Below, in pieces: positions 4,328 to 37,472 of a DNA stretch of 37,472 nt (position 1 is its first letter; each line of letters starts with the position of its first letter). This DNA comes from a virus. The stretch lies in the IMG/VR virus record IMGVR_UViG_3300030419_007750, positions 1 through 37,472 of that record; one strand, given 5' to 3'. The notes under the pieces were generated by a model. That model worked only from the letters and a program-made list of their open reading frames with translations. It searched no databases and was not told the DNA's origin. Position numbers and translations under genes: made by a program.

Positions 4328-5257
4328 TTATTCGCTTACGGCTCTACCTTTTTCTTGCTCCCAATCTTTTTCTGGACGATCTATTTTTTCGTTACGAACC
4401 TGAGCACTCTTTAATACCATTGTCTTCACTTTAGAAGTTTTCATTTGATGAAGAAGGGAAGATACATCTTTCGGGAAACATGTGCCTCCATACCCTCTCT
4501 TATTATCTGGTCCAGGAACTTGAGTATGACTTTCGCCTATTCTTGGGTCACAACAACTTAACTTTCTAATTAAATCATATTTTAAATCATTTTTTAAACA
4601 AAACTCCTCTATCTCGTTAAAGAAAGACACTTTTACAGCTAAAAAAGAATTTCTAACATATTTTACAAACTCTGCGTGTTTAGTCGAGGTAAAAGTAACG
4701 TTATCGCACTCGATTTTATCATGCTTTTTAGCTAACGCAAGCAAGCTTCTCATTTTATTTACAAAAGTATTGAATTCTAAAACTTCTCCAGTTTTTGTAA
4801 TATCTTCCATCTGGACCCTAAGACCACTCTTAGTCATTTCAGACATGTTATCCGTCCCGCATAACCATAAAGTATTTTTGTAAAAATCTTCTCTCCAGTT
4901 TTTCTCAGTAAGGAATTCAGGCATAAAATTAACTTTTAATTTTTTACAGGTTCCCACGGGGACTGTTGACCTTACGACTATCTTATTTTTTCTTATTCTA
5001 ACGGAGCCTAAATCTTTAATTACAGATTTTACTATGGAAAGATCACAATTTCCATTAGGCTTCATAGGCGTAGGAACACACACAAAAACTAAATCACAAG
5101 TTTTTAAATCCTGCAATGTAGTCCCTTGAGGAGAACACTTTTCGGGGTCTTTATCATACACAATACATTGTACAGAATCACACTCAAAAAGCTGCGTTGC
5201 TTTACCAACATACCCGTTGCCTACTACTCCTATTTTAAAATTTTTAATTTGCTTCAT
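4328..5257 (-). CDS. ugd: UDP-glucose 6-dehydrogenase-like protein lacking the C-terminal domain
   Basis: These enzymes oxidise UDP-glucose (or a related nucleotide sugar) twice with NAD to the uronate. The NAD site is GNGYVG (13-18), followed by CVPTPMKPNG (60-69), RSTVPVGT (96-103) and MPEFLTEKNWREDF (112-125). AVKVSFFNEI (207-216) holds the usual Lys and Asn, and GYGGTCFPKD (255-264) holds the catalytic Cys260. At 309 residues it ends soon after the central helical domain; cellular enzymes of about 390-450 residues have another C-terminal nucleotide-binding domain. All catalytic motifs are intact, so this may be a minimal enzyme rather than a pseudogene. It could act on another UDP- or GDP-sugar. 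A minus-strand terminator upstream (5294-5322) separates it from the gene at 5358. Confidence 0.88.
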   Translation of the reverse strand: MKQIKNFKIGVVGNGYVGKATQLFECDSVQCIVYDKDPEKCSPQGTTLQDLKTCDLVFVCVPTPMKPNGNCDLSIVKSVIKDLGSVRIRKNKIVVRSTVPVGTCKKLKVNFMPEFLTEKNWREDFYKNTLWLCGTDNMSEMTKSGLRVQMEDITKTGEVLEFNTFVNKMRSLLALAKKHDKIECDNVTFTSTKHAEFVKYVRNSFLAVKVSFFNEIEEFCLKNDLKYDLIRKLSCCDPRIGESHTQVPGPDNKRGYGGTCFPKDVSSLLHQMKTSKVKTMVLKSAQVRNEKIDRPEKDWEQEKGRAVSE

Positions 5258-7445: not shown

Positions 7446-7456
7446 TTCTGTACTGA

Positions 7457-7485
7457 AGAGTAATAAGTTTTTTTTATTAAGTCAA
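7457..7485 (-). promoter_or_regulatory. Sigma-70-like promoter, minus strand
   Basis: On the minus strand TTGACT (7485-7480) and TACTCT (7462-7457) are separated by 17 bases. The ATG of the small DNA-binding gene (7445) is 11 bases after the -10 element, so the leader would be about 5 bases. Confidence 0.5.
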
Positions 7486-7492
7486 TTATTTT

Positions 7493-7521
7493 TTGCAAAA
7501 TATAGGCTACAGGGTTATTTT
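7493..7521 (+). promoter_or_regulatory. Sigma-70-like promoter, plus strand
   Basis: TTGCAA (7493-7498) and TATTTT (7516-7521) are 17 bases apart. The ATG at 7529 lies 7 bases after the -10 element, roughly where transcription would begin, so the message may be leaderless. Confidence 0.45.
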
Positions 7522-7528
7522 TTAAAAA

Positions 7529-7948
7529 ATGACAGTTTTAGACACATGCGTTGAGCTTTATAAATGGTTTCAAAATCATGATTCTTTAAGCGTAAAAAAG
7601 AACTTCAAGGATATTTTTTTGATTTCTGAAGACGAAACCACAGATAAAGCTAAGTTGATAGCAGGGTTAAAAAAACTCCAAGAACAAAAAATAATTACAG
7701 AAGTAATCGTAGGCGGTGAAAATATTTTTATTTTAAATCAAAAATTGGAAAGCCTAAATCAAGATATAACAATAGACAGAAATACTGCATTAAAAATCGC
7801 ACAAGTGATAAATAATTTTTGTGATAATATAGATGACCACGTAGATGTAGCCGACCCTAGCAATATCCGTCCTAAAGATATCTTGCATATTACTTTAATT
7901 TTAGAAGCCATGCAAAAAGACGGGATAACGCCAAAAAAAATTGACTGA
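7529..7948 (+). CDS. Hypothetical protein, possible winged-helix N-terminus, 139 aa
   Basis: The first 70 residues are helical with a wHTH-like pattern (KAKLIAGLKKLQEQKIITEV, then GGENIFIL). The second half (RNTALKIAQVINNFCDNIDD ... RPKDILHITLILEAMQKDG) is a separate helical domain. I recognise no named family. It is transcribed away from the minus-strand operon and directly precedes the non-coding RNA region. Its last codons contain the -35 element of the next promoter. Confidence 0.6.
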   Translation: MTVLDTCVELYKWFQNHDSLSVKKNFKDIFLISEDETTDKAKLIAGLKKLQEQKIITEVIVGGENIFILNQKLESLNQDITIDRNTALKIAQVINNFCDNIDDHVDVADPSNIRPKDILHITLILEAMQKDGITPKKID

Positions 7949-7969
7949 CCTCCAAAATGATATTACAGT
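7941..7969 (+). promoter_or_regulatory. Sigma-70-like promoter of the non-coding RNA
   Basis: TTGACT (7941-7946) and TACAGT (7964-7969) are separated by 17 bases. The predicted start, about 7975, coincides with the first hairpin of the structured region. The -35 element overlaps the stop codon of the upstream gene. Confidence 0.45.
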
Positions 7970-7974
7970 AGCAA

Positions 7975-8350
7975 AAAAGGGTAAGAGCCCCTTTTAAGCT
8001 CGCTGGGACAAATCAGTGGAGTTTTCCTAAGATAAACCACATAACGGTTGGGGACTTAAGTCTGGGTTCCATTCTCAAGGGATACAGCTTCCTATCAAAT
8101 ACTAGGAGTAAAAAACGCTTGGTTGATTACCAAGGCATTGCCCCGCGTGAGCGGTACATAGACGTAACTAGAGTTTTTCAAGCCGCAGTTTCTCTGGCCT
8201 CCCTAACAAGAGGTAGTCTGTGCCAAACATTAGTTTGGTTGTATTTTGTGTCTTGGAGTACCCCTCTCCAATCAAAACAATAAAAGGGCCGAAGAAAAGA
8301 ATAGACACACTTAAATACGATACCCCCTTTTGTGGGGGTATTGTGTCTTT
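7975..8350 (+). ncRNA. Candidate structured non-coding RNA, about 375 nt, class unknown
   Basis: No convincing gene lies between 7949 and 8421. This stretch holds a chain of hairpins: AAAAGGG/CCCTTTT (7975-7995); GGGAC/GTTCC (8051-8070); a 6-bp stem with one bulge (8088-8108); CTTGGT/ACCAAG with a 5-base loop (8118-8134); CCGC-GTGA-GCGG with a GNRA tetraloop (8143-8154); CGCAG/CTGTG (8184-8222) enclosing CCTC/GAGG; CCAAAC-ATTA-GTTTGG (8223-8238); TTGGAG/CTCCAA (8253-8271). A long terminal stem (8303-8348) closes it. The GNRA loop exists only on the plus strand, which also has the promoter and the 3' terminator. I do not see RNase P, 6S, SRP, tRNA or group I intron core sequences. It could be a large phage RNA of the GOLLD/ROOL kind, a leader for the gene at 8422, or something new. 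Confidence 0.6.
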
Positions 8351-8352
8351 AT
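8303..8352 (+). terminator. Two-tier stem-loop terminator of the ncRNA
   Basis: An inner perfect 8-bp stem ATACCCCC (8320-8327) / GGGGGTAT (8334-8341) has a 6-base loop. An outer perfect 7-bp stem AGACACA (8303-8309) / TGTGTCT (8342-8348) follows on directly at the 3' side. The stem is followed by TTATTT. The U-run is modest, but the stem is the strongest local structure in the region. Confidence 0.65.
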
Positions 8353-8386
8353 TTCCGTGAAAAGTATCCACACCCTCAGAAACGTA

Positions 8387-8414
8387 TTGATTTTGAATCA
8401 AAATATTATAATAT
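8387..8414 (+). promoter_or_regulatory. Promoter-like region with inverted repeat before the glycosyltransferase gene
   Basis: TTGATT (8387-8392) and TAATAT (8409-8414) are 16 bases apart, 7 bases before the ATG at 8422. The -35 element is one arm of the perfect inverted repeat TTGATT-TTG-AATCAA (8387-8401), a possible operator. Confidence 0.4.
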
Positions 8415-8421
8415 ATTTTAA

Positions 8422-9150
8422 ATGAGCTCACCCACAGCTTCCTTACCTCATGTTTTTATAGCTACTCCATGTTACGGAGGAATGGTATGTCAAGAATTCA
8501 TGCAGAGTACGTTACGCGTACTACATTCGTGTATGAATAATAATATATCTCTTCAAGTTTTTATGATAGGTAATGAGAGTTTGATAACTCGTGGTAGAAA
8601 TCAGTTAGTATCGGAATTCATGGCGTCAGGAGCTTCTCATTTATTTTTTATTGATTCAGACATAGAATTCCCTGAAGATTCTATTTCTAAATTATTATCA
8701 CACGATAAGCCTGTTACAGTTGGAGCGTACCCCTTAAAACAAGAACCTATTAAGTATGTTATCAACACTGAAGGCTCCTACACTATTCATGATGATCTCG
8801 TCGAAGTTAAAGATGCAGGAACTGGTTTTATGATGATAAAAAGAGAAGTTATTTCAAAAATGCAAGAAGCTTATCCTGAGTTGCATTATGTCGGAGACTT
8901 GGACGGAGACTCTTACAGGAAGGATTTAAGGGGGAGAGATGAGCACAGAGAAAAATTAAAAAATAATTTATATAGTTTATTTGATACGTCTCATGATAAA
9001 AATGATAATAATGCCTACTTGTCAGAAGACTACACATTTTGCAGGAGATGGCAAAAAATTGGCGGTAAGATATGGCTTGATACCACTATTTCATTAAATC
9101 ATGTAGGTAGAAAAAAATACAGAGGGGATGCTTCTAAAATTTTCAAATGA
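8422..9150 (+). CDS. GT-A fold glycosyltransferase, phage type
   Basis: The N-terminus VFIATPCYGGMVCQEFMQS and the motif SHLFFIDSDIEFPEDSI (72-88) define a GT-A glycosyltransferase family common in marine phages. Asp78-Ser-Asp80 is the metal/nucleotide-sugar binding DxD. AGTGFMMIKREV (about 133-144) and SEDYTFCRRW (about 200-209) are the acceptor-side and likely catalytic-base regions. No membrane segment is present, so it acts in the cytoplasm; donor and acceptor are unknown. Its stop overlaps the next start (ATGA). It follows the ncRNA terminator and has its own promoter-like sequence. Confidence 0.82.
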   Translation: MSSPTASLPHVFIATPCYGGMVCQEFMQSTLRVLHSCMNNNISLQVFMIGNESLITRGRNQLVSEFMASGASHLFFIDSDIEFPEDSISKLLSHDKPVTVGAYPLKQEPIKYVINTEGSYTIHDDLVEVKDAGTGFMMIKREVISKMQEAYPELHYVGDLDGDSYRKDLRGRDEHREKLKNNLYSLFDTSHDKNDNNAYLSEDYTFCRRWQKIGGKIWLDTTISLNHVGRKKYRGDASKIFK

Positions 9151-37156: not shown

Positions 37157-37472
37157 GGGGGCGTACTGGATTCGATTTAGGGTCTTACGCCGAATTGCAA
37201 GCAGAGGATGACAGTTGGCCTCTTAAATCATCTGTCTAGGTAATTCAACTGCCAATGATAATGTTGATATGGCTCCTTCCTTGGCCGAAGCTGACGCGAT
37301 TCTCGCTAAGTTTGGCTGGGCTGAAGAAGCTGCTGTAGCTGCGTAAGCTACCCGTCCTACTCTGGATGCTCGTTAAGGAGCTAGGGCGTCGATAACGAGC
37401 AAAAAAAACTAGGAAGGGTGAGGAGTCTAGTCTAAATAAAGTGCCTCCAACCTCGTGTGTAGTTGTTAGTGA
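37157..37472 (+). ncRNA. ssrA: tmRNA (SsrA), 3' end beyond the window
   Basis: tmRNA rescues stalled ribosomes and tags the unfinished protein for proteolysis. The 5' end GGGGGCG then TACTGGATTCGAT matches the tRNA-like half of one-piece tmRNA. GAGGATGACAGTTGGCCTC near 37204-37222 matches pseudoknot PK1. The tag frame begins with GCC at 37251 and stops at TAA 37344-37346. It encodes 31 residues, starting ANDNVDMAPSLAEADA and ending AEEAAVAA. This is much longer than the 10-residue E. coli tag but keeps the AND start and the VAA end. The window ends at GTTGTTAGTGA, which aligns with E. coli GTTTGTTAGTGG, so roughly 70-80 bases (T-arm and 3' acceptor strand) are missing. Confidence 0.93.

Follow-up and report, generated by a model that had tools for sequence, protein, structure and literature searches.

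Positions 7970-8355 of the window (the whole stretch of DNA analysed here, an IMG/VR virus record of 37,472 bases) hold a new structured RNA family, which we call type 1. The assignment follows from base-pair covariation beyond that expected from phylogeny, the absence of coding conservation and the presence of a promoter of its own. The RNA probably extends to about 8376. We found 41 distinct homologues, all in viral contigs of uncultured marine phages, and the RNA is a family trait characteristic of this phage group. Our main reading, to which we give even odds (a probability of about 0.5), is that it would be a stand-alone early RNA gene of the sigma-70 type, with a 3′ domain acting as a strand-exchange switch between two mutually exclusive pairings, R*:A and R*:B.

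To our knowledge, it is rare to find a large structured RNA that has no relative in Rfam, and we know of no functions assigned so far to the phage RNAs GOLLD and ROOL. The many diverged homologues mean that the type 1 fold can be modelled now, and the concerted repeats A and B, together with R*, offer a precise mechanistic handle.

Structure and covariation of the RNA

The RNA lies in a gap of 473 bases (7949-8421) between two open reading frames of the same direction (7529-7948 and 8422-9150), with no convincing frame inside, as a sequence-only reading of this DNA had described. That reading had proposed an unclassified, hairpin-rich non-coding RNA of about 375 nt, which is borne out by very strong covariation and by the lack of an Rfam match for the region and its homologues. 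Relatives were fetched via the phage ribonucleotide reductase, where blastn with the 473-base gap gave matches of 67-91% identity, and the set of 41 was then obtained from iterated nhmmer searches and DNA-pattern scans. Protein coding was rejected for either strand because the homologues carry stops and indels; no protein frame is conserved among the 41, and the lengths of their segments spread over all residues modulo 3. The minus-strand frame of 87 codons, whose conservation had been named as a possible refutation of the RNA, is broken by stops in 39 of the 41 homologues.

When the window sequence was folded alone, the predicted hairpins were present but the stability was only slightly above that of shuffled sequences (z -1.7, with 5 of 100 shuffles equally good), so a single window would not prove structure, whereas the comparative data do. 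In alignment A1, which contains 35 sequences, a structure of 58 pairs was paired in 93.6% of 1,983 cells, against 40-49% after sliding the partners by 1-3 columns, a control that is biased toward the structure since the structure was drawn from A1 itself. Double changes filled 317 cells, compared with 99 (sd 9) in shuffles, and none of 500 shuffles reached any of the five measures. The tree-based test, which is independent of how the structure was chosen, used a null in which substitutions were reshuffled along a FastTree tree (40 simulations), and nine Watson-Crick pairs reached E ≤ 0.025 against it. Base pairs thus covary strongly among the homologues, which is the outcome in favour of an RNA that the sequence-only reading had left to be checked.

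The support extends along the molecule (Table 1). P6 is paired in all 35 sequences, with double changes at 6 of 6 pairs, three of them at E 0.000 and one at E 0.025. Two pairs of P8 (8160-8219 and 8162-8217) also reach E 0.000 in the tree-based test, and in PK5 the pair 8114-8190 is 100% Watson-Crick at E 0.025. Double changes are found at all 4 pairs of P3b and at 4 of 5 pairs of P12, which is 90% paired; judged by eye, the closing stem of P3 is perfect in L180, L110 and L124. At least three pseudoknots are present (PK5, PK7 and PK12, 96-100% paired), with PK7 at 95.8-100% and double changes at 3 pairs, and the CCC/GGG helix of PK12 at 97%. Because the two halves of the P9 loop each pair with another part of the RNA, the core is compact.

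Two further details foreseen from the sequence fared differently. The GNRA hairpin CCGC-GTGA-GCGG (8143-8154) is present in the window but atypical, as most homologues have CCCCGGCGUGUUGUGG at P7, with a GUGUU loop that forms a pseudoknot with AGCAC in a second loop. The two-tier terminal stem was confirmed, with a conserved inner part and an outer part, GACACA/TGTGTC, that involves one of the two strands competing for motif A.

Table 1. Positions of the type 1 RNA elements and their surroundings in the window, with type 2 loci in other records
Feature	Positions	Strand	Basis or remarks
P0002, usual upstream neighbour, 139 aa, winged-helix N-terminus	7529..7948	+	marks the slot
Promoter TTGACT-17-TACAGT	7941..7969	+	sequence; overlaps the stop codon of the upstream gene
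P1, 5′ hairpin AAAAGGG..CCCTTTT	7973..7996	+	fold; L180 and L154 have AAACGG..CCGTTT
P2, hairpin in the most conserved stretch, AAGCTCGCTGaGAGnAAtCAGTgGAGTTT	7997..8024	+	9 pairs, 91% paired, double changes at 5
P3, stem CCUnAGAU / AUnCAAGGG closing hairpins P3a and P3b	8026..8081	+	alignment
P4, hairpin TTCCTA..TAGGAG	8089..8108	+	fold, alignment
PK5, 8113-8116 (RRAC) with 8188-8191 (GUYY)	8113..8191	+	97% paired, double changes at 3 of 4 pairs
P6, hairpin CTTGGT-TGATT-ACCAAG, conserved UAAUU-type loop	8118..8134	+	
P7 (CC/GG) and loop-loop PK7, P7 loop GUG[UU] with P9 loop [AG]CAC	8143..8186	+	
P8, 8156-8162 with 8217-8224, encloses P9 and P10	8156..8224	+	98% paired, double changes at 6 of 7 pairs
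P9, CTAGAG / CTCTGG	8168..8197	+	94% paired; loop halves in PK5 and PK7
P10, hairpin CCTC..GAGG	8198..8213	+	sequence, alignment
P11, hairpin CCAAAC-ATTA-GTTTGG	8223..8238	+	8223-8238 and 8225-8236 at E 0.000
R*, strand able to pair with motif A and motif B	8239..8258	+	unbiased scan
P12/PK12, H-type pseudoknot TTGGAG-(taCCCCT)-CTCCAA ... AGGG	8253..8288	+	
Motif A, CCGAAGAAAAGAATAGACACACT	8289..8311	+	box 1 self-complementary, box 2 pairs with R*
P13, terminator-like hairpin CCCCC..GGGGG, then TATTGTGTCTTTATTT	8318..8349	+	92% paired
Motif B, CCGTGAAAAGTATCCACACCCT	8355..8376	+	second copy of motif A, beyond P13
Type 2 RNA, L140	5155-5668		
Type 2 RNA, L096	2896-3413		
Type 2 RNA, L146	5877-6384		and 21 other loci

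Gene slot, promoter and known RNA classes

The promoter proposed from the sequence, with boxes at 7941-7946 and 7964-7969, is conserved: promoter-like sequence precedes the RNA in 36 of 41 homologues, with the 17-nt spacer in 33, compared with 16% of shuffled sequences. A homologue of P0002 lies directly upstream in 34 of 41. The AlphaFold2 model of this protein has a pLDDT of 86 and gives weak winged-helix matches, the best PDB match being at E 0.02, and P0002 was rejected as a partner of the RNA because it is a generic winged helix only.

Downstream, the neighbouring gene varies and can encode a glycosyltransferase, a dNMP kinase or cluster 2; it is antisense in L169, L097, L124, L175 and L191, and no fixed downstream gene of the same orientation was found among the homologues. 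In six genomes the RNA has been relocated as a unit, between dUTPase and cluster 2. This relocation and the antisense neighbours indicate that the RNA is not the leader of one gene. A leader (5′ UTR) RNA or riboswitch of the downstream gene would fit with the upstream promoter and with the same-direction gene that follows in many phages, but we consider it very unlikely given the variable or antisense neighbour, the terminator-like P13 and the separate promoter-like sequence that precedes the next gene in the window.

Rfam 15 contains 4,227 models, including tmRNA, RNase P, 6S, SRP, group I and II introns, GOLLD and ROOL. At gathering thresholds, the whole window matched only a tmRNA at 37157 and nothing at 7970-8355, consistent with the earlier failure to place this RNA in a known class from its sequence. 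At E ≤ 10 the region gave chance matches only (best 19.6 bits against a cut-off of 100), and the type 1 homologues matched no family, permissive thresholds adding only chance matches. Identity with RNase P, 6S, SRP or an intron was rejected, as the models found no match, and so was GOLLD or ROOL, with no match to either covariance model. A tmRNA was likewise rejected, with no RF00023 match, no ARAGORN match and no conserved frame. Like the phage tmRNA (RF00023) of the same phages, type 1 is phage-borne, about 400 nt long and pseudoknotted; unlike it, type 1 is a separate gene without a tmRNA model match, the tmRNA being located at 37157-37472.

GOLLD and ROOL, large ornate RNAs of phages and prophages with pseudoknots (PMC12286853), are nearest in kind, without type 1 being a member of either. 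Type 1 is similarly phage-encoded, independently placed, pseudoknotted and supported by covariation, but it is about half their length and shares no sequence or covariance-model match with them. It lies in a nucleotide-metabolism or early region instead of a tRNA island, and it has concerted direct repeats with one common partner strand. RNA-only homo-oligomeric cages are a further mark of GOLLD and ROOL.

Matched repeats and their partner strand

A and B are imperfect direct repeats of about 22 nt, one on each side of P13, which differ in their middle 4-6 nt. They diverge between phages yet match within each, as in L150, which has CTTCAAAGAAGCGTgcgCATAC and CTTAAAGAAGCGTtaaCATAC. The score of a phage's own A-B pair was higher than its score with distant phages in 41 of 41 homologues (12.8 vs 7.0), an excess of 5.8, whereas 649 other segment pairs in the RNA gave a mean of 0.02 (sd 0.22, maximum 0.74). 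In the tree-based test, the A-B column pair 8290/8357 reached E 0.000 with same-base rather than complementary changes. Gene conversion between A and B is unlikely for imperfect repeats of 12-22 nt. A type III toxin-antitoxin RNA, a CsrA sponge and a target-site duplication were dropped as explanations, as there are just two repeats, changing in concert at a fixed place.

We scanned the whole RNA without bias for strands that prefer their own box 2 over the box 2 of other phages. R* was the best external partner for box 2 of A (z -6.2) and of B (z -3.9). For box 2 of A, a preference was also seen for the strand on the 3′ side of P13 (8334-8355, z -3.5), in which TTGTGTC (8341-8347) is a second possible partner. 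With whole-segment duplex energy the preference for R* is weaker (p 0.03 for A and 0.14 for B), and the complementarity of R*:A and R*:B is partial and missing in some phages (L159/L110 group). If two strands had to pair with a common partner, each pairing excluding the other, they would have to stay matched to each other while both drift, as A and B do.

In the switch that we favour, the RNA would be transcribed independently and early from its own promoter, and the folded transcript would consist of P1-P4 on its 5′ side, a core in which P6-P9 combine with the pseudoknots PK5 and PK7, and a 3′ domain. R* would pair either with A, before P13, or with B, after it, and A, when freed, could extend P13 through TTGTGTC. 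Such an exchange may couple folding of the 3′ domain to 3′-end formation or to the binding of a partner. We infer that B lies within the RNA, that the switch operates and that it has a biological output. P13 may instead end transcription before B and leave B as a DNA element only, which counts against the switch.

The main rival reads A and B as two sites bound by a single coevolving protein of the phage or its host; each site would combine a mini-hairpin with a specificity box, and the RNA would be a scaffold or decoy. Box 1 of each copy has itself as its best partner, forming a mini-hairpin (z -5.7 and -6.8), and although box 1 does not pair with R*, it also varies in concert between A and B, so their concert could equally stem from the binding of both copies by one protein or RNA. 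The spacing between the boxes also differs between copies (0 vs about 6 nt in the type 2 RNA described below), which suits separate recognition. On the other hand, the unbiased scan finds an internal partner strand for box 2 of both copies, and there is no obvious RNA-binding protein among the genes neighbouring the RNA. We regard this explanation as a serious one but rather improbable.

The proposed strand exchange has likenesses elsewhere. In attenuators and riboswitches, too, one strand has competing partners, one of which extends a terminator-like hairpin; type 1 differs in having two near-identical partner strands and in not being tied to one downstream gene. DRT10 ncRNAs and telomerase RNA (PMC12632851) also keep two matched repeats beside a hairpin or pseudoknot despite sequence drift, and by analogy a reverse transcriptase could use the type 1 RNA as its template or cofactor, A...B then being the A-B-A′ pair for realignment. 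This is the least probable of the readings that we weighed. The repeats are spaced by about 65 nt in type 1 and about 200 nt in type 2, far beyond a 9-nt template, box 2 pairs with an internal strand, and a search for RVT_1 (PF00078), positive in its E. coli control, had no match in 15 partial records of the group with lengths of up to 178 kb; a DRT10-like or telomerase RNA was rejected on this last point. In our view type 1 is a new family; the broad kind to which it belongs is known, and one feature of its design is new.

A second RNA in sister phages and the phage group

About 20 related phages without type 1 hold, in the same slot, a gene-free stretch of about 480 bases. It contains a second structured RNA (type 2) of about 440 nt, with 24 distinct members, its own promoter and covarying helices. 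In the helix UUGGCC/GGCCAA double changes were found at all 6 pairs, and the best type 2 pairs reach only E 0.13-0.23 in the tree-based test. Type 2 has no Rfam match beyond chance ones at permissive thresholds, and the two RNAs were never found in one locus. Nor was there cross-detection between them, either by nhmmer profiles or by the covariance models R1 and R2.

Type 2 also carries repeats, which are exact over 12-16 nt in 23 of 24 members (shuffles gave a mean of 8.5 and a maximum of 13). They lie about 180-240 nt apart, both inside the RNA, and their sequence is phage-specific (AAAGGATAAGCAGTCA, AAAAGGCTGGCAGACA, AAAGCTAAGAGTCAGT and others). Since the matched-repeat design recurs in this unrelated-looking RNA, the A/B pair is very unlikely to have arisen by chance, and the occupation of one gene slot by two different RNAs built alike suggests a function needed by the phage group. 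In the partner scan of type 2, the strand just before repeat B ranked second, with another window on top. This second rank, the partial complementarity of R* in type 1 and the lack of cross-detection were weighed against the switch. It is a tentative proposal, with the odds somewhat against it, that one internal strand with two near-identical partners, kept matched in two unrelated-looking RNAs of one slot, would be a new principle for a natural RNA, serving as a strand-exchange switch or for domain-swapped multimers and required by the entire uncultured marine phage group.

Repeated phage-specific segments of 12-16 nt on a conserved scaffold could also be the guide segments of an RNA that directs a nuclease or recombinase. 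We consider such a guide highly improbable, as no nuclease or recombinase gene is linked to the RNA, the four type 2 records searched contain no further copies or complements of the repeat, and the spacing is unlike that of an array. A role in priming or controlling replication is unlikely, although less so. RNA-based phage replication origins exist (PMC7157519), and A in the RNA with B in the DNA could, for example, form an R-loop at B. In the window, the cumulative GC-skew minimum at about 7.5 kb adjoins the RNA, together with a divergent switch in gene direction, from mostly minus to plus, at about 7450-7530; the RNA of record G001 (17.8 kb) is likewise near a skew minimum. However, the skew follows the coding strand and gives no clear signal in G003, the difference between A and B in their middle nucleotides is poorly suited to an R-loop, both type 2 repeats are inside the RNA, and type 1 has moved by several genes in the six genomes mentioned above. 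The origin, reverse transcriptase template and guide readings are thus less likely than the switch or the two binding sites.

The type 1 RNA had no relatives among the 50,697 named phage records of INPHARED when three different members were used as queries. Two exact DNA patterns, which are a weak test, had no match in 84,980 GTDB species genomes, so a host origin of the RNA was not seen. Each of two long records (178 and 158 kb) holds one copy of type 1. The large terminase of one group member (L230 1282-3111) is at most 26% identical to that of any INPHARED phage, and the group therefore looks like an undescribed deep marine phage lineage. A search for the T4-like capsid protein Gp23 gave no match in the group, and its positive controls were likewise without a match.

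Other genes of these phages were noted. A sigma-70-region-2-like protein (PF04542, E 9e-5, slightly short of the cut-off), encoded by cluster 8, is found near the RNA in 19 relatives (for example L150, L180, L099, L109 and L141) and is a possible candidate for a phage sigma factor, judging from its domain match. The window encodes a phage signal peptidase I at 1482-2060 (PF10502, E 5e-29), and several glycosyltransferase, methyltransferase and UDP-glucose dehydrogenase genes at 4328-5257 and 8422-37000, suggesting that the phage builds its own glycans. The tmRNA at 37157-37472 is of the one-piece type (RF00023, 48 bits) and is cut by the contig end, with a tag frame, read by eye, of ANDNVDMAPSLAEADAILAKFGWAEEAAVAA*. 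tmRNA models scored above the cut-off in 12 of 17 long records of the phage group, and this tmRNA of their own makes the group a good one in which to study phage RNA biology.
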